Shown: positions 61 to 14,400 of the stretch, piece by piece
How the letters are laid out: every line of letters begins with the position of its first letter
Numbering within the stretch: position 1 is the stretch's first letter
NCBI GenBank assembly: GCA_900555345.1
Contig: USKS01000003.1
Location: 1 to 24,853 of the forward strand
Source: an uncultured Eubacteriales bacterium
Lineage (GTDB): Bacteria; Bacillota_A; Clostridia; Oscillospirales; CAG-272
Direction: 5' to 3'
DNA: 24,853 nucleotides
The notes under the pieces: model-generated
The model's database searches: none
Told to the model about the DNA's origin: nothing
What the model saw: the letters and a program-made list of their open reading frames with translations, nothing else
Made by a program: the position numbers and the translations under genes

Positions 61-258
61 ATGAAATTCAACTGGAAAAGAGTTCTGAGGACGCTCATTC
101 AGAGCGCGGCAGGCGCGGGTATTGCCCTGCTCACCGCAATTACCACCGATTTTTCAAAAGCGGCGGTTACAGCGGCGGTTATTCAGTTCGGCACTACCGT
201 AGCGATCGCGGTACTCATGAACATTCAGAAGCAGACCGAAGGTGACGGGAATGAGTAA
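61..258 (+). CDS. phage holin-like small membrane protein
   Basis: This 65-residue protein has a basic N-terminus (MKFNWKRVLR), a hydrophobic stretch at about 11-28, a second one at about 33-53 (VTAAVIQFGTTVAIAVLMNI) and a short charged tail. Size, topology and the directly following endolysin match small holins of Firmicute phages, which form lesions in the cytoplasmic membrane that let the endolysin reach the wall. A clear AAAGGAGG lies upstream of the ATG. Its last codons overlap the amidase start (ATGAGTAA), so the two are translationally coupled. The family is inferred from size, membrane pattern and context, not from a diagnostic motif. A small unrelated membrane protein is possible but less likely. 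Confidence 0.75.
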   Translation: MKFNWKRVLRTLIQSAAGAGIALLTAITTDFSKAAVTAAVIQFGTTVAIAVLMNIQKQTEGDGNE

Positions 259-1030
259 TTCTGCTCTTATTTCGGAAACCGTCCTTGCCAGCTCCAACAA
301 TTATTGGGGAGACCGCAAGGGCGCGAAGATCAACAAAATCATCGTACACCATATGGCGGCGGTATGGACGGGAAAACGCTGTGCACAGTCTTTTCAGGAC
401 CCGAAGCGCGGCGCATCGGCTAACTACTGCATAGGCTACAACGGCGAAATAGTGCTCTGTGTGCCGGAAGACCTTTGCGCGGGAACAACGGGCGGATTTG
501 AAATCGACCGCTATGCGGTTACAATCGAAGTGGCAAACAGTAAAATGGGCGAGCCGTGGACAGTCTCCGGCAAGACGCTTGACAGCCTTATAAAGCTGTG
601 CGCGGATATTGCAAAGCGGAACAGTCTCGGACGGCTTGTTAAAGGGAAAAATCTCTGCTGGCACCGCATGTATGCCGCTACTGCCTGTCCCGGTACGTAT
701 CTGCTCTCAAAGATGGACCACATCGCAGAAAAGGCAAATGAAATAAATTATCCGAAAGAGGTGAAAATCAGCATGGGTGAAATCACGGGCATCAATACAA
801 GCAGAGGAACGAATGCGCTTGTCCTCATTACGGACGGCAGAGCGACAACGGGCTTTAACAAGTGGGGTGTCGACGTTATCGTCAACGGCAAGGGCATAAT
901 TACGCAGATCGTTGACGGCAAATCCAACACGCCTATCCCCAAGGGCTGCATCTGTCTGTCCGGTCACAACAATGCCGGATGGTATCTTAAGCAGCATTGC
1001 AAGGTTGGGGCAAGACTCAAAATAGGCTGA
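251..1030 (+). CDS. N-acetylmuramoyl-L-alanine amidase (phage endolysin, Amidase_2 type)
   Basis: The enzyme cleaves the amide bond between MurNAc and L-alanine in peptidoglycan and would act as the phage endolysin. Residues about 10-165 form an Amidase_2/PGRP-like zinc domain. The ligands are visible as His33 in IIVHHM, His138 in CWHRM and Cys146 in TACPG. A second domain, about 173-259, contains a WG motif and a LSGHNNAGWYL motif; it resembles accessory domains seen in some clostridial wall hydrolases and may bind the wall, which is inference. I chose ATG 251 because AAGGTG sits at a good distance and ATGAGTAA couples it to the holin stop; an in-frame GTG at 242 would add three residues. 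It ends 22 bases before a 17-bp-stem hairpin, so it is probably the last gene of the lysis operon. Confidence 0.9.
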   Translation: MSNSALISETVLASSNNYWGDRKGAKINKIIVHHMAAVWTGKRCAQSFQDPKRGASANYCIGYNGEIVLCVPEDLCAGTTGGFEIDRYAVTIEVANSKMGEPWTVSGKTLDSLIKLCADIAKRNSLGRLVKGKNLCWHRMYAATACPGTYLLSKMDHIAEKANEINYPKEVKISMGEITGINTSRGTNALVLITDGRATTGFNKWGVDVIVNGKGIITQIVDGKSNTPIPKGCICLSGHNNAGWYLKQHCKVGARLKIG

Positions 1031-1052
1031 CGGGAGATGTTTTGATGTGAAA

Positions 1053-1095
1053 AAAGCACCCTGCAAATGACCTATTGCCATTTGCAGGGTGCTTT
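1053..1095. terminator. bidirectional intrinsic terminator between the phage lysis genes and the cotJ operon
   Basis: Two perfect 17-base arms (1053-1069 AAAGCACCCTGCAAATG and 1079-1095, its exact complement) enclose a 9-base loop. Read on the minus strand the stem is followed by six T residues, a classical terminator for cotJ. Read on the plus strand the T tract is only three bases, but the stem should still stop the convergent lysis operon. Confidence 0.88.
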
Positions 1096-1121
1096 AAAAT
1101 TATAACTAAATGCATTTCGGA
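1096..1121. other. phage/host junction inside cotJC (candidate attachment site)
   Basis: Reading cotJC on the minus strand, resemblance to the CotJC family continues to the Gly-Gly-Pro codons at 1126-1118, then stops. The next codons (Lys, Cys, Ile, TAG) are not what the family has here, where an acidic residue and then GEL normally follow. Beyond lies AT-rich sequence, the terminator and phage DNA. The switch therefore lies at about 1112-1121. No att core repeat can be identified because only one end of the element is in the window. Confidence 0.5.
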
Positions 1122-1213
1122 CCTCCGAGTTGGCTGACTATGACTTTCGCTGCTGCCGCGTTGGGCGTTTTAATGTTTACGGGGTATTGAAGCTTCTTTT
1201 CGTATTGCCACAT
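1106..1213 (-). pseudogene. cotJC: cotJC, 5' fragment only (manganese-catalase-like spore coat protein)
   Basis: The minus strand from ATG 1213 encodes MWQYEKKLQYPVNIKTPN, continues AAAAKVIVSQLGGP, then KCI and a TAG stop, 35 residues in all. The first 32 match the N-terminus of the CotJC family, which is normally about 190 residues with a ferritin-like dimanganese catalase fold. All metal ligands of that fold lie downstream and are missing. The ribosome site AAGGAG (1226-1221) overlaps the cotJB stop with seven bases to the ATG, so expression signals are intact. The gene is third in cotJA-cotJB-cotJC, the usual order. The break coincides with the edge of phage DNA, which suggests integration into the gene rather than decay. 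It is either a dead remnant or one half of a gene restored by excision. Confidence 0.88.
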
Positions 1214-1225
1214 ATTCTTTCTCCT

Positions 1226-1507
1226 TCATCTCGCGCGCCCGGAGCACGTACAGTCGTTCTGCCAGGGCCACGGGCCGTCTGTCCAGCTCCATGAGCCGTC
1301 CGCGGGGTCGGCGAAAGCTGTCATGGGACCGTATTTGTTCTCATATTCTTTTACAAGAGCGCACAGCTCGTTTCTCCGCACGCGGAAAAACTCAAGGGCG
1401 TCTCTGTCCGTCGGGTGGGTGTCCAGAAACAATGCTGCCTCGTGTACGCAAAGTCCTACTGCGCTTATTCTGTTTATAAGCGCATTTCTTGTTCTGTCGG
1501 CGGTCAT
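1226..1507 (-). CDS. cotJB: spore coat protein CotJB
   Basis: CotJB is a small spore-coat component made in the mother cell and encoded between cotJA and cotJC. The 93-residue product shows the family signatures: the motif ALFLDTHPTDRDALEFF, then EYENKYGPMTAFA, and a C-terminal W-x-W...PWPWQ. The start at 1507 is set by AAAGGAGG just upstream and by an ATGA overlap with the cotJA stop; a longer reading from 1528 would place the ribosome site inside the gene. The C-terminus ends in an extra Cys-Thr-Cys (NDCTCSGRAR), which parallels the cysteine enrichment in the neighbouring CotJA. Length is normal for the family. The stop overlaps the cotJC ribosome site, so the three genes form a tight operon. 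Confidence 0.93.
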   Translation of the reverse strand: MTADRTRNALINRISAVGLCVHEAALFLDTHPTDRDALEFFRVRRNELCALVKEYENKYGPMTAFADPADGSWSWTDGPWPWQNDCTCSGRAR

Positions 1508-2004
1508 ATGCTGCGCCTCCTTTGACATCCTTCGTTATTGCATGGGGTGGGGTAGAACGGCAAAACCAGCTCGCCGAACAGCGTGCCGTTTGCAAGAGCG
1601 TCCTTGCAGTCCAGGATGTCTCTCCACTGCTGCATCGGCACATACGCCATGGCAAGGCTCGGGGCGGGTATGCGTCTGTCGGGGCAGCCGTCACCGGCAT
1701 TTCTGCCGCTGCCGCTGCGTGTTTGCGCGGTACGGGAGGTCTCACCGCGGCCGCATCCGCAGCCGCAGCCGGAGGTACGCGTCTGAGCTGTGCGGGCGGC
1801 ATTTGCGCATCCGCAGCCTGTGGTACGGGTCTCGGCAGTACATGCGGTATTTGCGCATCCGCAGCCGGTGGTACGTGCCTGAGCGGTACGGTTGGCGTTT
1901 CCGCATCCGCAGCCGGAGGTGCGCATCTCGGTGCCGTATTCAGAGAAAAACAGCTCGGCGGAGATTCTGTCTCTCGGCGTGCTGTTCTCATCGCAGTAAT
2001 TCAT
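1504..2004 (-). CDS. cotJA: spore coat-associated protein CotJA with a Gly-Cys repeat extension
   Basis: The C-terminal third (about residues 108-156) is a recognisable CotJA domain: PSLAMAYVPMQQWRDILD, then ALANGTLFGELVLPF. CotJA helps assemble CotJC into the spore coat. The family is normally about 70-80 residues, but this protein has 166. The extra part, residues 28-95, consists of four repeats of R-T-[ST]-G-C-G-C-[GA]-N-x-x-x-T-A-x-[AT], three of 16 residues and one expanded to 20 with GCGCGCGRG. The start ATG 2004 has AGAAAGGAAA upstream. It leads the minus-strand operon and overlaps cotJB by four bases. Paired cysteines in a flexible Gly-rich setting would suit disulfide cross-linking or metal binding in the coat; that is inference. 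Family assignment rests on the C-terminal domain and on gene order. Confidence 0.9.
   Translation of the reverse strand: MNYCDENSTPRDRISAELFFSEYGTEMRTSGCGCGNANRTAQARTTGCGCANTACTAETRTTGCGCANAARTAQTRTSGCGCGCGRGETSRTAQTRSGSGRNAGDGCPDRRIPAPSLAMAYVPMQQWRDILDCKDALANGTLFGELVLPFYPTPCNNEGCQRRRSI
1720..1923 (-). repeat. 48-bp in-frame tandem repeat inside cotJA
   Basis: Four direct units encode R-T-[ST]-G-C-G-C modules. Three are 48 bp and the one nearest the CotJA domain is 60 bp, enlarged by extra Gly-Cys codons. The DNA is very GC-rich with recurring GGATGCGG-like cores, so copy number could change by slippage without shifting the frame. Confidence 0.9.
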
Positions 2005-2195: not shown

Positions 2196-4388
2196 ATGTA
2201 TTGTGCCAAATGCGGTCGGGAGATCGACAGTAACGCAGCATTTTGTCCCTATTGCGGTGAAAAGACAGGGTGTGCCCCCGCAGAGAAGAACAACGATGTA
2301 AAGACCGAGAACGCGAAGGAAAATACGGTAGGAATAACTGCAGCGCCCGAGACTCCCGCAGCGGAAACATACGCGGCACCAGTAGCGCCCGAGGTTCCCG
2401 CAACAGAAACATACACCGCACCCGCGGCACACGAGGCTCCGGCAGCGGATACATACGCCGCACCCGCGGCGGGCGCATATGCAGCGCCCGAACAGGGCTA
2501 TTATCAGCCCGCACCCGCGCCGACAGCTCCCGAAACACCCAAGAAGAAAATGAAGCTGTGGCTGAAGCTGCTTTTGTTTATCGGCATTCCCGTAGTTGTA
2601 ATCGCCGCGCTTATTGCAATAAACTTCAACGCGCTTAAAGGGCTGTTCGTAAAGAATTTCATGTCCGCCGACGCGTATATCGCAACGGTCGAGGGAGATT
2701 CTCTCAAGGAATATTACGATGCCGTAACAAATATTTACGCCAAAGGCGTGGGCACAGTCGTCAGCAGCACCTCCGATGGCTCCGCATCCGCCGAACTGAA
2801 TTTCAGCCTTTCCGACAGCTTTGCCGAGATGCTCGGCGATTCGGCATACATCGACCTTTCGTGGCTGTCCGACATAACCGTAAAAACGGCTTCATCCTCC
2901 GAAAACGGCGTAACTGCCACGGATGTGGACATATTGCTCGGAGAGCGCAAGATCACGTCGTTTACGCAGACGATCGACACAGAAAGCGGCAAAACGTATC
3001 TGTCCGTTCCCGATCTGTCGTCGCAGGTAATCGCAGTTGACGGCGCTGCTGTCGATAACGAGTATTCCGTTTCCGATATAATTGAGTTTGTTTCAAAGCT
3101 CCCCGAGGCGGAGCGGCTGAATGCGCTCCTCGCAAAGTATGTTGAAATCGTTCTCAGAAATATCGAGGGCACTCAGATGGCCGACGGCACCATCGCTGCG
3201 GGCGGCATTGAGCAGCAGTGCACCGAGCTGCGCCTTGAGTTTGACAAAGCGCTTCTGCAAAAGATATTCACGGCTGTTATTGAAGAGATGAAGAATGACG
3301 GCGAGCTCAAAGATATAATCATTTCGCTGGAGGACAGCGGCAACGAGCTTTTCGGTACAGACGACGTCAGCGGTGAAGAGGTATACGACAATTTCCTGTC
3401 CGCCCTTGACGATCTGCTTGACAATGTGAATAGCATTGACGGATCCGAGCTCGGAGACAAGGTGTTCACGCTTACGGACTACGTGGATTCTCACAATAAG
3501 ATAATCGGCAGAAAGATTGAAACAGCCGAGGACGGCCGCACGTATTTTATCGGAAAAGCCACGGCAAACGGCAAAACGGGCATTGAGCTCGACCTTGACG
3601 GCGAAATAACCGTAAAGGGCACCGGAAATGAAAAGGGAAGCCTTATAAACGGAGATTATGTTCTGTTCGTGCAGGGCAGCGAGATCCTCAATTTCAGACT
3701 TGAGGACTTTGATACCGACTCGCTGAAGAACGGCATGATAAACGGCGACATCACGCTTGAACTCGGACGTGTAGTCGACGGTATGTTCTATTACGGCTCC
3801 GAAGATAACGCCCTCGCGATGCTCAGACAGTTTGCGTATAAGATCTCCGCCCGTACGGATAACGATTCATACAGTCTTTCTCTCAGCGCTCTCAGCGGAG
3901 ATGAAGAAGCTATCGCCCTGTCCGTTTCCGGCGGCACGAAAAAAGGCTCCGGAAAAGCGGTCATTCCCGACGCGGATATAGAATGCGAGCACGGCGACGG
4001 CAATGCTATAGACGCGTGGATCGACGGCATGGACTTCGTCTCTCTTGAGAAAAAACTTGAGGATGCGGGAGTGCCTTCGCAGTTCGCGCCATATCTGAGA
4101 TACTACCTGACGGATGCAATGTATTCTCTTGCCGGAGTTGTGGAGATCTACGATGACGGGAATGACGGAGATTGGTACTATGACGATCGGAACGATTACG
4201 ATTGGAACGACGACTGGTATGACGACAATGATGATTGGTACAATGACGACAATGATGACTGGTACAATGACGATAATGACGATTGGTACAATGACGACTG
4301 GTACAATGATGACAATGACGACTGGTACGACGATTGGTTCGGCGACGACAGTTCGGACGGCATCGGCTCGGGCAACACGCACATCTGA
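2196..4388 (+). CDS. zinc-ribbon, single-span membrane protein with Asp-rich repeat tail
   Basis: Function unknown. The 730-residue protein begins with a zinc ribbon: Cys3/Cys6 and Cys17/Cys20 in YCAKCG and FCPYCG. Residues about 50-115 are a Pro/Ala-rich linker with three 14-residue repeats. A basic patch (KKKMK) precedes one membrane span at about 121-143. Residues about 155-645 form a large, probably extracytoplasmic region with no domain I recognise, rich in beta-type and acidic sequence. From about 650 the protein becomes D/N/W/Y repeats (DDWYNDDNDDWY). By the positive-inside rule the ribbon is cytoplasmic and the acidic tail outside. Zinc-ribbon plus one membrane span is a common architecture for uncharacterised Clostridia proteins. 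It has its own strong promoter and is followed by a 30-bp palindrome 18 bases before the ABC exporter genes, so limited read-through could link them. Confidence 0.85.
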   Translation: MYCAKCGREIDSNAAFCPYCGEKTGCAPAEKNNDVKTENAKENTVGITAAPETPAAETYAAPVAPEVPATETYTAPAAHEAPAADTYAAPAAGAYAAPEQGYYQPAPAPTAPETPKKKMKLWLKLLLFIGIPVVVIAALIAINFNALKGLFVKNFMSADAYIATVEGDSLKEYYDAVTNIYAKGVGTVVSSTSDGSASAELNFSLSDSFAEMLGDSAYIDLSWLSDITVKTASSSENGVTATDVDILLGERKITSFTQTIDTESGKTYLSVPDLSSQVIAVDGAAVDNEYSVSDIIEFVSKLPEAERLNALLAKYVEIVLRNIEGTQMADGTIAAGGIEQQCTELRLEFDKALLQKIFTAVIEEMKNDGELKDIIISLEDSGNELFGTDDVSGEEVYDNFLSALDDLLDNVNSIDGSELGDKVFTLTDYVDSHNKIIGRKIETAEDGRTYFIGKATANGKTGIELDLDGEITVKGTGNEKGSLINGDYVLFVQGSEILNFRLEDFDTDSLKNGMINGDITLELGRVVDGMFYYGSEDNALAMLRQFAYKISARTDNDSYSLSLSALSGDEEAIALSVSGGTKKGSGKAVIPDADIECEHGDGNAIDAWIDGMDFVSLEKKLEDAGVPSQFAPYLRYYLTDAMYSLAGVVEIYDDGNDGDWYYDDRNDYDWNDDWYDDNDDWYNDDNDDWYNDDNDDWYNDDWYNDDNDDWYDDWFGDDSSDGIGSGNTHI
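2349..2474 (+). repeat. 42-bp tandem repeats encoding the Pro/Ala linker
   Basis: Three 14-residue units, ETPAAETYAAPVAP, EVPATETYTAPAAH and EAPAADTYAAPAAG, lie between the zinc ribbon and the membrane span. The pattern is E-x-P-A-x-[ED]-T-Y-x-A-P, a likely flexible cytoplasmic tether. Confidence 0.85.
4198..4338 (+). repeat. tandem repeat encoding the DDWYND tail
   Basis: Near-perfect repeats of about 24 bp (TGGTACAATGACGACAATGA plus four bases) code for W-Y-N-D-D-N-D-D units, with shorter 15-bp variants (W-Y-N-D-D). Third-position changes between GAC and GAT are scattered, so the copies are not all recent. The antisense strand reads as a Val/Ile repeat that is clearly a shadow. Confidence 0.88.
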
Positions 4389-8651: not shown

Positions 8652-8680
8652 ATCATACTATAAAATATTTGCAATTTCAA
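8652..8680 (-). promoter_or_regulatory. sigma-A promoter for the minus-strand lipoprotein gene
   Basis: On the minus strand TTGAAA (8680-8675) and TATGAT (8657-8652) are 17 bases apart. The predicted start of transcription near 8645 leaves about 140 bases of leader before ATG 8506. The leader contains a small GCGGCA/TGCCGC stem near 8585-8597. Confidence 0.72.
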
Positions 8681-8756
8681 CCATGCCGCACGTTTTTTAC
8701 CTTTAGAATGAAACTTTATTGTGAACATCGGAAAACGCCTGTATTACCTTTATATC

Positions 8757-8783
8757 GCGGCGCGCCCCGCGGACGGGCGCCGC
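8757..8783. other. GC-rich hairpin in the divergent intergenic region
   Basis: GCGGCGC (8757-8763) pairs with GCGCCGC (8777-8783) between the promoters of the lipoprotein and rnhA. No T tract follows on either side, so it is not a standard terminator. The 375-base interval 8507-8881 otherwise holds only the two divergent promoters; I see no gene in it. Confidence 0.4.
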
Positions 8784-8816
8784 TGTGATGGCAGTGTGCA
8801 TTTTGCCCGAAAACGG

Positions 8817-8845
8817 TTGCAAAAGATATATTTGCGTGGTAAAAT
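8817..8845 (+). promoter_or_regulatory. sigma-A promoter for rnhA and following genes
   Basis: TTGCAA (8817-8822) and TAAAAT (8840-8845) are separated by 17 bases, 37 bases upstream of the rnhA start. It is the only good promoter I see before the three-gene group rnhA, lipoprotein, DUF1015. Confidence 0.7.
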
Positions 8846-8881
8846 ATAAGTTAGTACCACCCACGGCGGAGGAAATGCATT

Positions 8882-9322
8882 TTGAAAAATGTGGATATAT
8901 ACACGGACGGCTCCTGCAAAATAAATCCCGGTCCCGGCGGCTGGGCGGCAATTCTCGTGTACGGCAGCGCCGAAAGAGAGATATGCGGCGGAGAGGCGGA
9001 TACCACCAACAACCGCATGGAGCTTAAAGCGGTCATAAACGCTCTTAAAATGCTGAAAGAGCCGTGCAGCGTCCGCATTACCACCGATTCGCGGTACGTA
9101 GCCGACGGCATCGGAAAGGGCTGGGCGGCGTCATGGAAAAAGCGCGGCTGGAAAAAGGCGGACAAATCTCCCGCGCTCAACCCCGAGCTGTGGGACGAGC
9201 TTCTCGGTCTTTGCGAAACACACGATGTGAGCTTTGAGTGGGTAAAGGGGCACGCGGGTCACCCGTACAACGAGCGCTGCGACACCCTTGCTCAGACCGA
9301 GGCGGAAAAATACAGAAAATAA
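8882..9322 (+). CDS. rnhA: ribonuclease HI
   Basis: RNase HI cuts the RNA strand of RNA-DNA hybrids, such as R-loops and replication primers, in the cytoplasm. The 146-residue protein has the normal length and all catalytic residues: Asp9 in YTDGSC, Glu47 in NNRMELKA, Asp69 in TTDSRYV and Asp134 in ERCDTLA, plus the His124 loop in [10 protein letters not shown]. The basic handle region ([11 protein letters not shown]) is present, as in the Escherichia coli enzyme. The start is a TTG with GGAGG (8868-8872) nine bases upstream; the nearby ATG 8875 is out of frame. It is first in a short plus-strand gene group, 38 bases before the lipoprotein, and a short GC stem (9331-9346) lies in that gap. 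Confidence 0.96.
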
Positions 9323-9360
9323 TTAAAATACCGCGCTGCGGCGCGGCAAAGGAGAAACCT

Positions 9361-9855
9361 ATGAAAACAAAGATCATTTCGCTTATTCTTGTGTCGGTAT
9401 TTGCGGCGGCGCTGCTTATGGGCTGCGCTTCTTCCGATGTTGCCGCCGAGACCGCATGGGTCGACGTAAACTCCGGAAACGTCAGAAAATGCACCCATTC
9501 CGAAACTCAGGCGGAAACCGCGCCCGATACGGACGCCGACGGCAATCTTCTTCTGACCACCGACGAGAACCGCCTCGTATACCAGACAGAGTACGGCTGC
9601 GAGGTGCTCGTGTTCAACGGCACATATGTAAGTAAGATTTATCTTGTATATACTTTTGCGAGCGCCGACGATGCCTCGCAGTATCTGAGCAGCCAAGCAA
9701 ATGACATTATGTCCGCGGGAGACATTACGGATATAAAGCAGCAGGATAATATACTTATCCTGAACCCTAAAATGTCATCTCAGAACTATATCAAATACCT
9801 CTCCATGACACGAGAGCAGGTTGAAGAAGAGTTCGCTTCTTTCAAGAAGCAGTAA
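9361..9855 (+). CDS. predicted lipoprotein, function unknown
   Basis: The 164-residue protein opens with MKTKIISLILVSVFAAALLM and the lipobox LLMGC, with Cys22 the likely lipid-modified residue. It should be exported and held on the outer face of the membrane. The mature part begins with an acidic linker and continues with alternating strand-like segments (CEVLVFNGTYVSKIYLVYTF) and a Ser/Asp-rich helix. I do not recognise the family. The start ATG 9361 has AAAGGAG just upstream, and in-frame sequence before it overlaps rnhA and lacks coding character. It is followed 17 bases later by the DUF1015 gene and probably shares its transcript. Confidence 0.85.
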   Translation: MKTKIISLILVSVFAAALLMGCASSDVAAETAWVDVNSGNVRKCTHSETQAETAPDTDADGNLLLTTDENRLVYQTEYGCEVLVFNGTYVSKIYLVYTFASADDASQYLSSQANDIMSAGDITDIKQQDNILILNPKMSSQNYIKYLSMTREQVEEEFASFKKQ

Positions 9856-9872
9856 TTTCAGAGGAGATATAT

Positions 9873-11084
9873 ATGGGAGAAACCATTTTCGGCGCAGCCG
9901 ACATACTCCTGCCCCCCTTTGACGACCCCGCAGAATGGAGCGCGTATTCGGTTATAGCGTGTGACCAATTTACAAGCGAGCCGGAGTACTGGGAAAAAGC
10001 GGAGAAGCTGAGCGGCGCACTCTCAACGCTTGATATGATACTGCCCGAGGCATACCTCGGTACCAATAAAGAGGCGGCGGCTAAATGGCGCATTGCCGAA
10101 AAAATGCCCCTTGCTTTGCAAAAGCTGCATTGCTATAAAAGCAGCATGGTGTATGTGGAGAGAGTTCTGCCGGACGGCGGAGTTCGCCGCGGAATTGTAG
10201 GCAGTATCGATCTTGAAGAATATGACTATACGCCATCCTCGGCATCCCCTGTCAGAGCAACGGAGAAAACCGTCGTGGAGAGGATCCCGCCTCGCGTGGA
10301 GATACGCCGAGGCGCTCCGATAGAGCTTCCGCACGTCATGGTATTTGCCGACGACAGAAAAGGTATGCTTATACAGTACCTTTGCGATCGCAGAGAGAGT
10401 CTTCGCCGCCTTTACGATTTCGATCTCATGCTCGGCGGCGGACATATAACCGCATACCTTGTTGACGGTGAGATACTCAGAGCGCTCCTTTGCAATATTG
10501 CGGACTATGAGGCGGAAAAAAGCGGCTCCGTCGTGTACGCAATGGGCGACGGCAACCACTCGCTCGCAAGCGCAAAAGCATACTGGGAACAGCTGAAGGC
10601 GGACGGGGCGGCGCCCGATCATCCCGCGCGCCGCGCGCTTGTTGAACTTGTTGACCTCGGCGACGGCGCTATCGCCTTTGAACCTATATACAGGCTTATC
10701 ACAAACTGCGATACCGAGAAGCTTATATCGGCGCTGCGCGAGAGCGCCGAAAAACACGGCAGCAAAAAAACTGCCGTCGCTGTGACGGCTGACGGAGAAA
10801 GGGAAGTGTCCCTTCCCGATCTTCACCCGCTTGCGATCGGCTGCCTGCAGCAGTTTCTCGACACCTGCGGTCTTACTTTCGACTGTGACTATATCCACGG
10901 CGAGGATACTCTGCGCACTCTCAGCCGCCGTCCCGACGCGGTGGGATTTCTGTGCGGCGGTATAGAAAAAAGCGAGCTGTTTGACTATGTGACGCGCCAC
11001 GGCGTTCTGCCCAGAAAGACATTTTCCATGGGTGAGGCGCGCAGCAAACGCTATTATCTAGAGGCAAGAAAGATAACTTTCTGA
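9873..11084 (+). CDS. DUF1015 family protein
   Basis: The 403-residue protein matches the DUF1015 family, which has about this length. Landmarks are the N-terminal PPFDDPAEW and YSVIACDQFTSEPEYW segments and the central YAMGDGNHSLASAKAYWE motif near residues 221-238, which carries the conserved D-G-N-H core. Characterised relatives include the archaeal free-serine kinase SerK and the staphylococcal SbnI, so a small-molecule kinase is a reasonable guess. Whether this protein phosphorylates serine is unknown. It is cytoplasmic, with no signal peptide or membrane span. GAGGAG stands eight bases before the ATG. It is last in the group after rnhA and the lipoprotein, and a bulged hairpin follows at 11113-11169. 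Confidence 0.85.
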   Translation: MGETIFGAADILLPPFDDPAEWSAYSVIACDQFTSEPEYWEKAEKLSGALSTLDMILPEAYLGTNKEAAAKWRIAEKMPLALQKLHCYKSSMVYVERVLPDGGVRRGIVGSIDLEEYDYTPSSASPVRATEKTVVERIPPRVEIRRGAPIELPHVMVFADDRKGMLIQYLCDRRESLRRLYDFDLMLGGGHITAYLVDGEILRALLCNIADYEAEKSGSVVYAMGDGNHSLASAKAYWEQLKADGAAPDHPARRALVELVDLGDGAIAFEPIYRLITNCDTEKLISALRESAEKHGSKKTAVAVTADGEREVSLPDLHPLAIGCLQQFLDTCGLTFDCDYIHGEDTLRTLSRRPDAVGFLCGGIEKSELFDYVTRHGVLPRKTFSMGEARSKRYYLEARKITF

Positions 11085-11112
11085 AGACGGAATACATAAC
11101 ACATCCGATTAT

Positions 11113-11174
11113 AGGCGGCTGCATAAGGGTTTTAGGGAAATGTGACAAAGGAACCCTGCGCAGCTGCCTGTTTT
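11113..11174 (+). terminator. probable terminator after the DUF1015 gene
   Basis: An outer stem of ten pairs (11113-11122 with 11160-11169, one wobble) encloses an inner six-base stem AGGGTT/AACCCT (11126-11131 with 11152-11157). GTTTT follows directly. The large loop makes it less typical than the other terminators here. Confidence 0.6.
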
Positions 11175-11384
11175 GCACTTGCCGAAGCCCGAAACCGGCG
11201 ACGGATTCGACAAAAAATTACATTTTTATATATATAATAACCAAACACGATTTTTTGCGTGCCCGATAGATAAATGCTTTTCGTCATATGATTCGACATA
11301 AAAACCGTGCCGAAAAACGCAAAATACTGCATTTTAATATCAAAAATGTGAACATATTGTACACGCACTGTGCAATTTGAAAAA
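11175..11384. other. AT-rich intergenic region upstream of the cohesin protein gene
   Basis: No gene is visible. The nonamer GATTCGACA occurs twice in direct orientation, at 11204-11212 and 11290-11298, each followed by an A-rich stretch, a possible regulator site pair. AT content rises sharply toward the promoter at 11420. Confidence 0.35.
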
Positions 11385-11419
11385 TTAGGGTAAATTTTTA
11401 TTTATTTTTTTATAAACTA

Positions 11420-11448
11420 TTGACAATGCGGGGGCAGAAAAGTATAAT
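11420..11448 (+). promoter_or_regulatory. consensus sigma-A promoter with AT-rich upstream element
   Basis: TTGACA (11420-11425) and TATAAT (11443-11448), 17 bases apart, match the consensus exactly. The 35 bases before it are almost pure A/T with phased T runs, like an UP element. An AGGAGGT site (11466-11472) follows six bases before the ATG. All signals point to high expression. Confidence 0.92.
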
Positions 11449-11478
11449 GTAAGTACCAATATTTTAGGAGGTAAGCTC

Positions 11479-14400
11479 ATGAAAAAATTACTTTCTGTAA
11501 TTGTAATTGTCACTATGCTTGTGACCGCAATGTGTCCTGCGTTCGCAATCATGGCAGCTGACACGCTTGACATTTCCGCCGAAAACACATACTTTACAAA
11601 GAATGACGACGGAAACGGCGAGTCAACTATGACTGTTTCAGTTACAAACAACCCCGGATTTTCCGATCTTACATTTGTGGTGTATTACGATACCACCTAT
11701 GTAAGCTCCATTGAACCCGATACCGCAAGTTCCGTGTTCGGTGACGATTTCATAACTGTAAACGGTGCAAGAAAATCAACTGTTGCAGCTGTGAAGAAGC
11801 TTTTCACCGCTGCAGGCCTTGCGACCGGCGCTACGATCTACGCAAGGCAGATCGACGTTAATTATACTGATGCAAACGGCGAACCGCTGAATACTGCCGA
11901 GCTCGGCGAGATTCTGAAGTTTGTCGTAACATCTGCCGGGACTTATGATGAGATCCCCGACAAAGCAGTCACTGTCGGCTACTTCGTTGCGTCTGCTTCA
12001 AACGTGGGCGGCGATAATCTGGAGTTCAGCGCTCCCGGCACCTGCGCAATAGAGAAAGACCCCTGGGCTTCTTTCGAGACCGAAAAGACGTATGACAATT
12101 TCACACTTGCGGCCGGCGATATGAACGTTTATGCGGGCACTACTACCGTTGACGTTCCCGTAAGAGTCTACAAAAATACTAATGAGTATGGCTTCTTGTC
12201 AACGGCACTCACCATTGTTTTCCCGAAAGAACTTCATCTTGATTCTCTCATTTTCAACACAAAGGCGCAGTCCGTAAACCCCATTAAGCGTATTAGTGAC
12301 GATGCACACACCGACTATGCTATTCAGGATCATCTTGATAATTTCAATGAACAGTGCCAGGGCGTGTTTGAGCAGAATAACATCGACTGGAGAACCCTGG
12401 ATGCAAAGTGCGAATACTTTTTGACAGAGCCTACCGAGCCAACTGTCGAAGGCAGTATGAGAGAAACCGACGCTTTGTTCTACACGCTCAGATTTGTGCT
12501 TCCCGAGAACGCAAGACCCGGTACAAAGTATGATATTAAGGTTTACACCAGAGTCAGAGACGGCGTTGTCGGATTTGTCGGCGGTACCGAGAATGAAAAT
12601 ATCGTTTCCATGACACACAACCTCGGCAACGGTTCCATTAAGGTCCTGAGCAAGTCCGCTTGTGACCACTCCGAGACCGAAGAGCAAATCGTAACTCCCG
12701 CAACCTGCACATCCGTCGGTACAAAGAATATCGTCTGCAAGCTTTGCGGCGAGATTATTGATACCGTTGAGATCCCCAAGATTGACCATACATACGAAGC
12801 AGTTGTTACAGAGCCTACCTGTGAAAAGGGCGGCTACACCACATACACCTGCTCCGTATGTAACCACAGTTACACCGGCGATGAGACCGCTGCTCTCGGA
12901 CATGTAGCCGGCGAAAAGAAAGTTACCGTCGAGCCTACATACGAAGCAGAGGGTACATACGAGATCCGCTGCACAAGATGTGACAAGGTTCTCGAGACCG
13001 GTTCTATCCCGAAACTTGTAAAGACAACTATTACCGTAGGCGATGCGTCTACAAAGCCCGGCAACGATATAGTAGTTCCCGTAACTGTTGCAGACAACCC
13101 GGGTATGTTCATTACAAGACTTACAGTTAAATACGACGCAACAAAGCTTACCTTCGTAGAGGCAGTTAACGGCGAAGTATTTGCAGACGCTACAAACGTG
13201 CTCTTCACTAAAGTAGAGGACGGCAACCTCACTCTGTATTTCGAGACAGCAGACGAGGCCGATACTTCCGTAAATGGCGTTCTTGCAAACCTGAAGTTTA
13301 CTGTTAACTCCGATGAAAGCATAGTAGGAACAACCGATATTACAGTTGAGGTTGAGGACGCAGTCAACTATGCAGGCAAGGATCTTGACATCGTTACCGC
13401 AAACGGTACCGTAACCATCGCGGCTAACCAGAAGATCACTGCCGAGAGCCGTGAAGTTGAAATCAACAAGACTGTTGAAGTTCCCGTTGCAATCGCTGCA
13501 AACGAGGGCGTTTGGGCACTCCGTCTTGAGGTTGCATATAATGCGGATCTCATAACTCTTGAGTCCATCAAGTCCGGACTGCTCTCGCTCGAAGAGGGCG
13601 TGAACTACAGCGTAAAAGACGGTGTCATCACTATCTTCAAGGACGCTGACGATCTTGCTAACATTGAAGCAGACGGCACACTCTTTACCCTCGTATTCAA
13701 GGCAGGCGCCGCGACCGGCGAGTCTGCTGTCGGTATTACAGTGCTTAATGCTATTAATAACAAGGGCGAGGACCTCTCCATTAAGATATTCAACGGTGCC
13801 GTAAAGGTTATCCCCTGCACGCACTCTGAATACAAGACCGAAGTAACCAAGGCTCCTACAGTTGAGGAAGAGGGCGTTCTGTCCTACATCTGCACCAACT
13901 GCGGCGAGACCTTCAAGACCGAGCCTATCGCACGTCTTGCAGGACTTACTATCGGTAAGGTTACTGCCAATGCAGGCGGCGCAGTCGCAGTTCCCGTAAC
14001 TGTTTCTTCCAACCCCGGCACATACTCCATCAGAATGGAATACAGATATGATGCCGAAGTTCTTACGTTCGTAAACGTAACCAGCGGTATCTTCACTGCT
14101 GACGAGTTCAGTGCTTCCGTACATGACGGCGTTGTTACAGTATATGTAGAGGCTGACACGGTTGCCAACATAACCGATGACGGCGTTGCATTTACCCTCA
14201 ACTTCACCGCAGCAAGCACTGCTGAGGGCACATACGAGGTTGCCGGTACTCTCCTTCAGGACAGCACCGTAAATGTTGACGGCGATGAGATCGCTTACAC
14301 CGTTGTAAACGGCGAAGTTGCAATCACCAATAACTTCGTAGCAAGAATAGGCGATAACTATTACACCGACCTTAAGACCGCATTCGATGCAGCAGTTGAC

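Follow-up and report, generated by a model that had tools for sequence, protein, structure and literature searches.

Programmed DNA removal is known for a handful of sporulation genes, listed in PMC10747680 as sigK, spsM, spoVFB and gerE, together with yabG. In both Bacillus subtilis and Clostridioides difficile, sigK harbors skin, an LSR-encoding element whose excision restores the gene (PMC5025042, PMC10747680). SP-beta of B. subtilis is a full prophage located in the spore-envelope gene spsM and excised during sporulation (PMC4191935); gin, found in gerE of Bacillus cereus, is a non-phage element that has serine recombinases and, within a short coding region, a core of 9 bp common to both ends (PMC5595907). 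The elements yin, in yabG of Clostridium botulinum, and vfbin, in spoVFB of Bacillus weihenstephanensis, are prophage-like and occupy late sporulation genes (PMC10747680), and phi027 of C. difficile adjoins a CotJC-like gene (PMC11222575, PMC12122855).

The present work concerns a 24,853-nucleotide stretch of DNA (the window) from an uncultured Eubacteriales bacterium. The cotJC family is known for its role in sporulation, and in the window the coding region of this sporulation gene is interrupted after codon 32, an event encountered repeatedly in relatives. The B. subtilis CotJC protein has been placed in the inner coat (PMC12122855). As in the case of skin, the LSR-encoding elements of relatives lie inside a mother-cell sporulation gene, but the target is a coat enzyme instead of a sigma factor, and three points and several LSR families are involved. 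The window prophage resembles SP-beta in residing in a spore-envelope gene; the gene is a different one, however, and many cotJC elements are small, several of them carrying non-phage genes. The serine-recombinase elements with a short core in cotJC of relatives recall gin, although gin is one element at one point, whereas cotJC is struck at three points, up to three at once. A prophage-like insertion in a late sporulation gene is also what yin and vfbin represent; in contrast to yin, which is unique to one strain according to PMC10747680, the cotJC splits recur across the class. Finally, phi027 is described as lying beside a manganese-catalase coat gene, whereas the window prophage lies inside cotJC. 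In the partly accessible literature searched, from which most subscription journals fell outside, we found no report of an element inside cotJC.

The cotJ operon and the phage side of the window

The minus strand of the window carries a cotJ operon made up of cotJA, cotJB and the first 32 codons of cotJC (1213 to 1118). The operon order is kept, with CotJA (1504..2004, minus strand; PF11007, E 2.7e-14, residues 117-150) and CotJB (1226..1528, minus strand; PF12652, E 9e-25) encoded upstream of the cotJC fragment. The window CotJA has an N-terminal Cys/Gly-repeat extension of about 100 residues, with Thr-Gly-Cys-Gly-Cys repeats, outside the Pfam match. The cotJC fragment (1106..1213, minus strand) starts with an ATG behind a purine-rich ribosome site, AAGGAGAAAGAAT, and its translation reads MWQYEKKLQYPVNIKTPNAAAAKVIVSQLGGP, followed by KCI and a stop; residues 1-32 align with positions 1-32 of the 284 of PF05067 (E 3.4e-7). 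Thus, both the normal start with its ribosome site and the CotJC homology that gives way to foreign sequence after codon 32, as stated in the preliminary description of this DNA, were confirmed.

On the host side, a gene divergent from cotJA (2196..4388, plus strand) belongs to a homology group shared with genome G016 (L206), where its homologue, cotJA, cotJB and cotJC follow in the same order and cotJC is intact. The window CotJB showed a 97% match over 93% of its length, and as a probe against viral and genome contigs it found no relative. Among the matches listed, the G016 CotJC was closest to a Candidatus Avispirillum sp. protein (98%), which makes the window host a probable relative of Avispirillum, and the best counterpart of the window DUF1015 protein among 80 loci listed was that of Ca. 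Avispirillum faecium, with 57% identity.

A search with the G016 CotJC, considered over the best 120 of 7999 homologues, led us to two proteins, P0128 (47 member sequences) and P0137 (9), that are identical to the window CotJC over 32 of 32 N-terminal residues, the next-best homologue reaching 29 of 32. P0128 is a normal CotJC of 207 residues, and both proteins run on as CotJC from Gly-Gly-Pro-Asp-Gly-Glu. The existence of full-length proteins that match all 32 residues and continue as CotJC implies that the break in the window is not due to chance, and P0128, P0137 and the window are likely to come from one species. P0137 and P0128 are identical up to residue 149, near the third of the split points described below, beyond which the C-terminus of P0137 is a different one; P0137 may be an assembly chimera or the product of recombination near that point, so that P0128 is the safer intact allele.

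The sequence facing the cotJC fragment is of phage origin. An N-acetylmuramoyl-L-alanine amidase endolysin (242..1030, plus strand; PF01510, Amidase_2, E 8e-16; phrog_7698, endolysin, E 3.5e-41) ends 75 bp from it, and a 65-aa ORF in the usual holin position (61..258, plus strand) had no Pfam family match and a single PHROG match, to the unknown-function group phrog_4316 (E 1.7e-5). Of the holin-endolysin module proposed earlier, the endolysin was upheld by Pfam and PHROG and the holin was not. A lysis gene adjoining the att site, a feature of temperate tailed phages, is present, in agreement with the earlier placement of such a gene at the att end and of the integration inside cotJC, which falls at codon 32. 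Between the converging endolysin and cotJC fragment there is a 17-bp perfect inverted repeat (1053-1069/1079-1095), read from the sequence, that is probably a two-way terminator; a terminator scan with loops of 3-8 did not list it.

The crossover core of this site (site A), GGAGGTCC, occupies 1119..1126 on the minus strand, and GGAGGTCCT is the exact core common to both junctions in G003, G004, G009 and G019. The window shows a single copy of the core, the far end of the element being off the window. The adjoining 25 bases (1094..1118, minus strand) form a putative attL arm of the element, which matches arms beside A-family recombinases at 18 of 25 bases (IMG/VR L264), 17 (G123) and 16 (G215); when 5021 AT-rich 25-mers were compared with 12 arms as a chance control, a single one scored 18 with any arm. 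The agreement of the window arm with those of G001, G003, G004 and G017 was only 8-9 of 25, the chance level. With blastn, positions 1-1220 had no match among 50,697 phage records. The endolysin has three relatives in viral contigs (40-51%) and matches in 63 of 395 family genomes, the best of them (44-58%) all in the genus of G004; as these best matches lie off the contigs with cotJC pieces, no second copy of the prophage was located in the family genomes. The insertion of a prophage in codon 32 of the window cotJC has good support, and so has the hotspot described in the next section.

Recurrent split points and the maintenance of the pieces

Of the first eight genomes tested with PF05067, five had a split CotJC. 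We extended the search to a family draw of 395 genomes (313 matched, 75 without a strong full-length match re-searched) and a class draw of 291 (193 matched, 47 re-searched); genomes with a full-length best match were left out of the re-search in both. CotJC fragments ended at three recurrent points, at codons ~33, ~62-68 and ~148-151, the window representing the first (A). Among the matched genomes, 68 of 313 in the family and 37 of 193 in the class had fragments at these points, and 40 and 25, respectively, had both sides of a point. The family counts are the 58 and 34 of the 75 re-searched genomes plus ten G004-genus genomes from the same draw (17 of that genus searched, 13 matched, 10 with a fragment ending at one of the points), and the class counts are the 36 and 24 of the 47 re-searched genomes with G004 added. 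Four class genomes with a full-length best match (G420, G454, G596 and G637) were found split too, so the both-sides counts are likely too low; single-fragment counts may be inflated by unseen contig ends. The internal ends fell in three clusters (108 of 121 3' ends and 106 of 116 5' starts), and G555 has four CotJC pieces, one per interval between the three points. N-fragments with GGAGGTCC at codons 30-32 were present in G001, G003, G004, G009, G017 and G019.

Several rows were dropped from these counts: G461, G642 and G661, whose pieces lie -28 to +2 bp apart and look like frameshifts; G226 and G586, with both pieces in one open frame; G264, which is probably a paralogue; ends directed at the start of a contig (first base <= 20), far-end contig cuts being still counted; and low-score matches typical of remote Mn-catalase or ferritin-like proteins (e.g. 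G063, G161, G249, G608). A few counted genomes rest on one weak match (e.g. G466 and G665, below the family cut-off). A looser count had given 59 of the 75 and 41 of the 47 genomes re-searched.

The spoIVA ATPase domain (PF09547) served as a control: of 196 family genomes searched, 161 gave a match, in every case with a best E <= 4.6e-98, and the matches listed span nearly the whole 237-position model. Moreover, ordered same-strand pieces lie on single contigs of 4,068,724 bp (G531), 2,974,379 bp (G588) and 3,135,972 bp (G432). The control and these megabase contigs rule out MAG fragmentation as the sole cause of the split cotJC. Among 32 adjacent pairs on the same contig, 31 were ordered on one strand and one (G004) was not; three of the 31 had no insert, and the lengths of the other 28 inserts ranged from 3.8 to 157 kb with a median of 8.8 kb; 21 of the 28 were below 20 kb, which is small for a tailed phage.

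An exact 8-18 bp core joined the pieces in frame at the expected place in only 18 of 42 adjacent pairs; in the remaining pairs the repeat was shorter, diverged or misplaced, and six had no join at all. Nine of 100 downstream fragments had a flagged stop, which in G003 and G004 immediately precedes the core, so that decay of some copies is possible. The preliminary description had suggested looking for a 3' half of cotJC, a serine recombinase beside it and a short shared repeat, and all three were found in same-site relatives, the 3' half resuming at Gly-Gly-Pro-Asp-Gly-Glu and the repeat being the core. Its reading of a single case was right in kind and too narrow, given a recurrent hotspot with three points per gene.

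The detached pieces are under purifying selection, as judged from pairwise Nei-Gojobori estimates, in which distant pairs are saturated. Several species of the Avispirillum clade agree in the genes that flank the N- and C-pieces, which points to a split they probably have in common. Between the C-pieces of G003 and G004, which lack a start codon, we counted 55 synonymous changes and 4 nonsynonymous ones (dN/dS 0.014), with a dS of 0.82 in comparison to 1.11 for the flanking LSR and 1.01 for FakA; those of G009 and G019 differ by 15 and 1, and the C-pieces of this clade have dN/dS values of 0.014-0.019. In Ruminiclostridium, C-piece comparisons gave 13/0 (G596-G637), 28.5/4.5 (G531-G596) and 26.5/7.5 (G531-G699) synonymous/nonsynonymous changes, and 14 versus 0 in a further one, with dN/dS of 0-0.1 among G531, G596, G637, G699 and G700; the LSRs of this genus have 0.10-0.15. 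Even an isolated 28-codon middle piece between two inserts showed 13 synonymous versus 3 nonsynonymous changes (G531-G699), and 11.8 versus 10.2 for G531-G637, where the G637 piece ends differently. Rejoining is the best explanation for purifying selection on pieces that by themselves could not be translated, and the upkeep of these detached pieces suggests that the gene is stitched together during spore making.

Recombinases and cargo at the split points

Of the 56 split points in the loci examined, 46 had within 2.6 kb an ORF of 250 aa or more that a motif search marked as LSR-like, and at 39 of these points it lay within 100 bp; the 56 points include the window itself, G264 and the contig-cut ends of G019 and V687 (point C). 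When ten LSR proteins were compared with Pfam, all had Resolvase and Recombinase domains and nine also a zinc ribbon. In a tree of the 46 LSRs, all nine from point C formed one clade (100/100), 15 of 17 from point A another, and the 20 from point B two clades of ten; G531_A and G571_A fell elsewhere, on long branches. None of 200 label shuffles agreed with the tree as well as the real point labels. As the clades track the points, each point has recombinase families of its own. The skin-like nature proposed in the preliminary description is supported as a kinship in kind. An A1-type LSR probe found no relative in viral contigs.

Some of the elements carry phage genes. Among IMG/VR records lying inside cotJC of other hosts, terminase genes occur in G692 and G693 and a tape-measure gene in G693, a prophage of ~33 kb with CotJC flanks at both ends. 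In G688, the end with the CotJC C-piece also has an A-family recombinase, and an amidase endolysin is encoded close to the opposite end, the layout that would be expected for the window element; in other A-point elements the recombinase lies beside the N-piece, so the layout varies.

Several other inserts carry non-phage genes. The G588 insert (L242:5480-8780) contains apparent CRISPR arrays, with a 30-nt repeat, GTTTCAATTCCTTATAGGTAAACTTCAAAC, at ~66-bp spacing, and has an rve transposase gene between the arrays and a recombinase to the right. The genes of the G354 insert (L155, ~8672-12712) resemble what we take to be a branched-chain amino-acid ABC transporter operon.

In the genus of G531, Ruminiclostridium, the N-piece is present in all 11 genomes and ends at codon 32-39, three of the matches lying below the family cut-off; a downstream CotJC piece was found in 10 of the 11. 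The site-A insert with a GH44 gene is common to G531, G699, G700 and G637 (89-93% protein identity), and G596 has the same site-A LSR with an adjoining GH44 that reads into the end of the fetched stretch; the second-point inserts vary by species in recombinase and length, the first-point GH44 insert being shared (L309-L320). In G531 (L241) the inserts encode a GH44 with dockerin and a GH5 with CBM17/28 and SLH, which match Cel44O and Cel5I of Ruminiclostridium cellulolyticum; a resolvase-annotated gene lies upstream of Cel5I in that species (PMC4976890). Hence, we infer that G531 is R. cellulolyticum H10, a laboratory strain for which PMC4976890 describes a mutant made by ClosTron insertion, and observe that the genes matching Cel44O and Cel5I sit inside its cotJC inserts. 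PMC3656788 reports that Ccel_0428 and Ccel_0429 showed no expression on any carbon source tested.

G004 departs from the general arrangement, as its N- and C-pieces (L094 G004:C3:54039 and L099 G004:C3:162490) lie in opposite orientation and 108 kb apart, an arrangement that may be due to an inversion between att sites. The N-piece adjoins the host gene fakA, a neighbour it has in six genomes; fakA homologues are found in 16 of 17 genomes of the G004 genus, 14 of them at >= 64% identity. A type I restriction-modification gene lies upstream of the G004 recombinase.

With regard to regulation, neither sigK-like promoters (2, versus a shuffled mean of 0.77 and maximum of 4) nor sigE-like ones (2, versus 1.65 and 5) were enriched upstream of the 46 LSRs, and neither pattern was found upstream of the window cotJA. 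General sporulation-promoter control of the LSRs was therefore dropped as support. A sigK-like motif precedes the site-A LSR in all five Ruminiclostridium genomes aligned, ahead of an apparent small ORF that overlaps the LSR start, and a similar one lies upstream of the G531 cotJA; given the relatedness of the five genomes and the conservation of the entire stretch, this motif is weak evidence. In known systems some recombinases are expressed constitutively and control is exerted through the directionality factor (PMC5595907), so the negative promoter result does not decide the matter.

Probable fate of the interrupted gene

We consider it quite probable that a serine-recombinase prophage occupies a skin-like docking gene, cotJC, which is rebuilt in sporulation, the timing of excision being the conjectural part. 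The prophage would have entered codon 32 through a site-A family LSR acting at the core, the window being its attL end, with the lysis gene at the visible end and the LSR and the 3' part of cotJC at the far one. In the mother cell, during sporulation, the LSR and a directionality factor would excise the element to give an in-frame cotJC, and the forespore would keep it. Across Clostridia, cotJC would then act as a docking gene with three points, each with its own recombinase families, whose separated coding pieces the host would keep functional. The insertion itself is observed in the window, and the sites, recombinases, in-frame joins and purifying selection are observed in relatives; what the window element has at its far end, the involvement of a directionality factor, and when and in which cell excision would take place are inferences.

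The element could instead be an ordinary prophage, LSR phages landing in dispensable late sporulation genes and leaving only on induction, with a lysogen devoid of CotJC. Prophage-sized inserts, the existence of such records in IMG/VR and the lack of sporulation-promoter enrichment at the LSRs are in line with this idea, and some strains have another full-length Mn-catalase, so cotJC may be dispensable. Nevertheless, a merely broken gene would decay, whereas C-pieces devoid of start codons are held at dN/dS 0.014-0.019 in the Avispirillum clade and 0-0.1 in the G531 group, the splits are common to several species and the N-piece is kept in 11 of 11 G531-genus genomes, which makes this explanation unlikely, though less so for the window considered by itself. 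Still less likely is a dead window element whose cotJC piece is a pseudogene: only one end is visible and stops do occur in 9 of 100 downstream fragments of relatives, but the N-piece equals the intact alleles over its 32 residues, and the endolysin ORF, the start codon and the ribosome site are whole.

Two further explanations seem to us very improbable. The window is a single contig, which an assembler could have made by joining phage and host contigs; however, the break falls exactly at the core of the relatives and is followed by an attL-like arm, and split pieces are found on megabase contigs too. Selection on all pieces might reflect separate polypeptides that assemble with no rejoining of DNA, a notion to which we give hardly any credit, because the downstream pieces inspected lack an in-frame start, some with a stop immediately ahead of the core, and in many instances follow the stop codon of the LSR at once, and because cores join the pieces at the DNA level in 18 of 42 pairs. 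The exit of the window prophage from cotJC at the time of sporulation is thus put forward as the most likely reading of the sequence.

A broader proposal, to which we give an even chance, is that cotJC is a docking gene with three recombinase-specific ports that mother cells of Clostridia routinely rebuild from two to four pieces by one to three recombinations, so that phage or cargo elements (cellulase genes, CRISPR arrays) would cost the spore line nothing. The Avispirillum clade may undo its split by inverting a segment of ~108 kb; inversion instead of excision is suggested there because the G004 pieces are inverted and one of them has the host gene fakA as its neighbour.

Should mother cells indeed rejoin the cotJC pieces, the gene would be an unusually widespread and fragmented case of programmed DNA removal, present in what we take to be a named and genetically workable organism. 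For annotation, it is a warning that coat-gene fragments beside serine recombinases may be working genes. Furthermore, it would open to testing what leads recombinase elements to mother-cell genes, how the action of several recombinases within a single gene is timed, and whether an element gains from a terminal cell line that passes on no genome.
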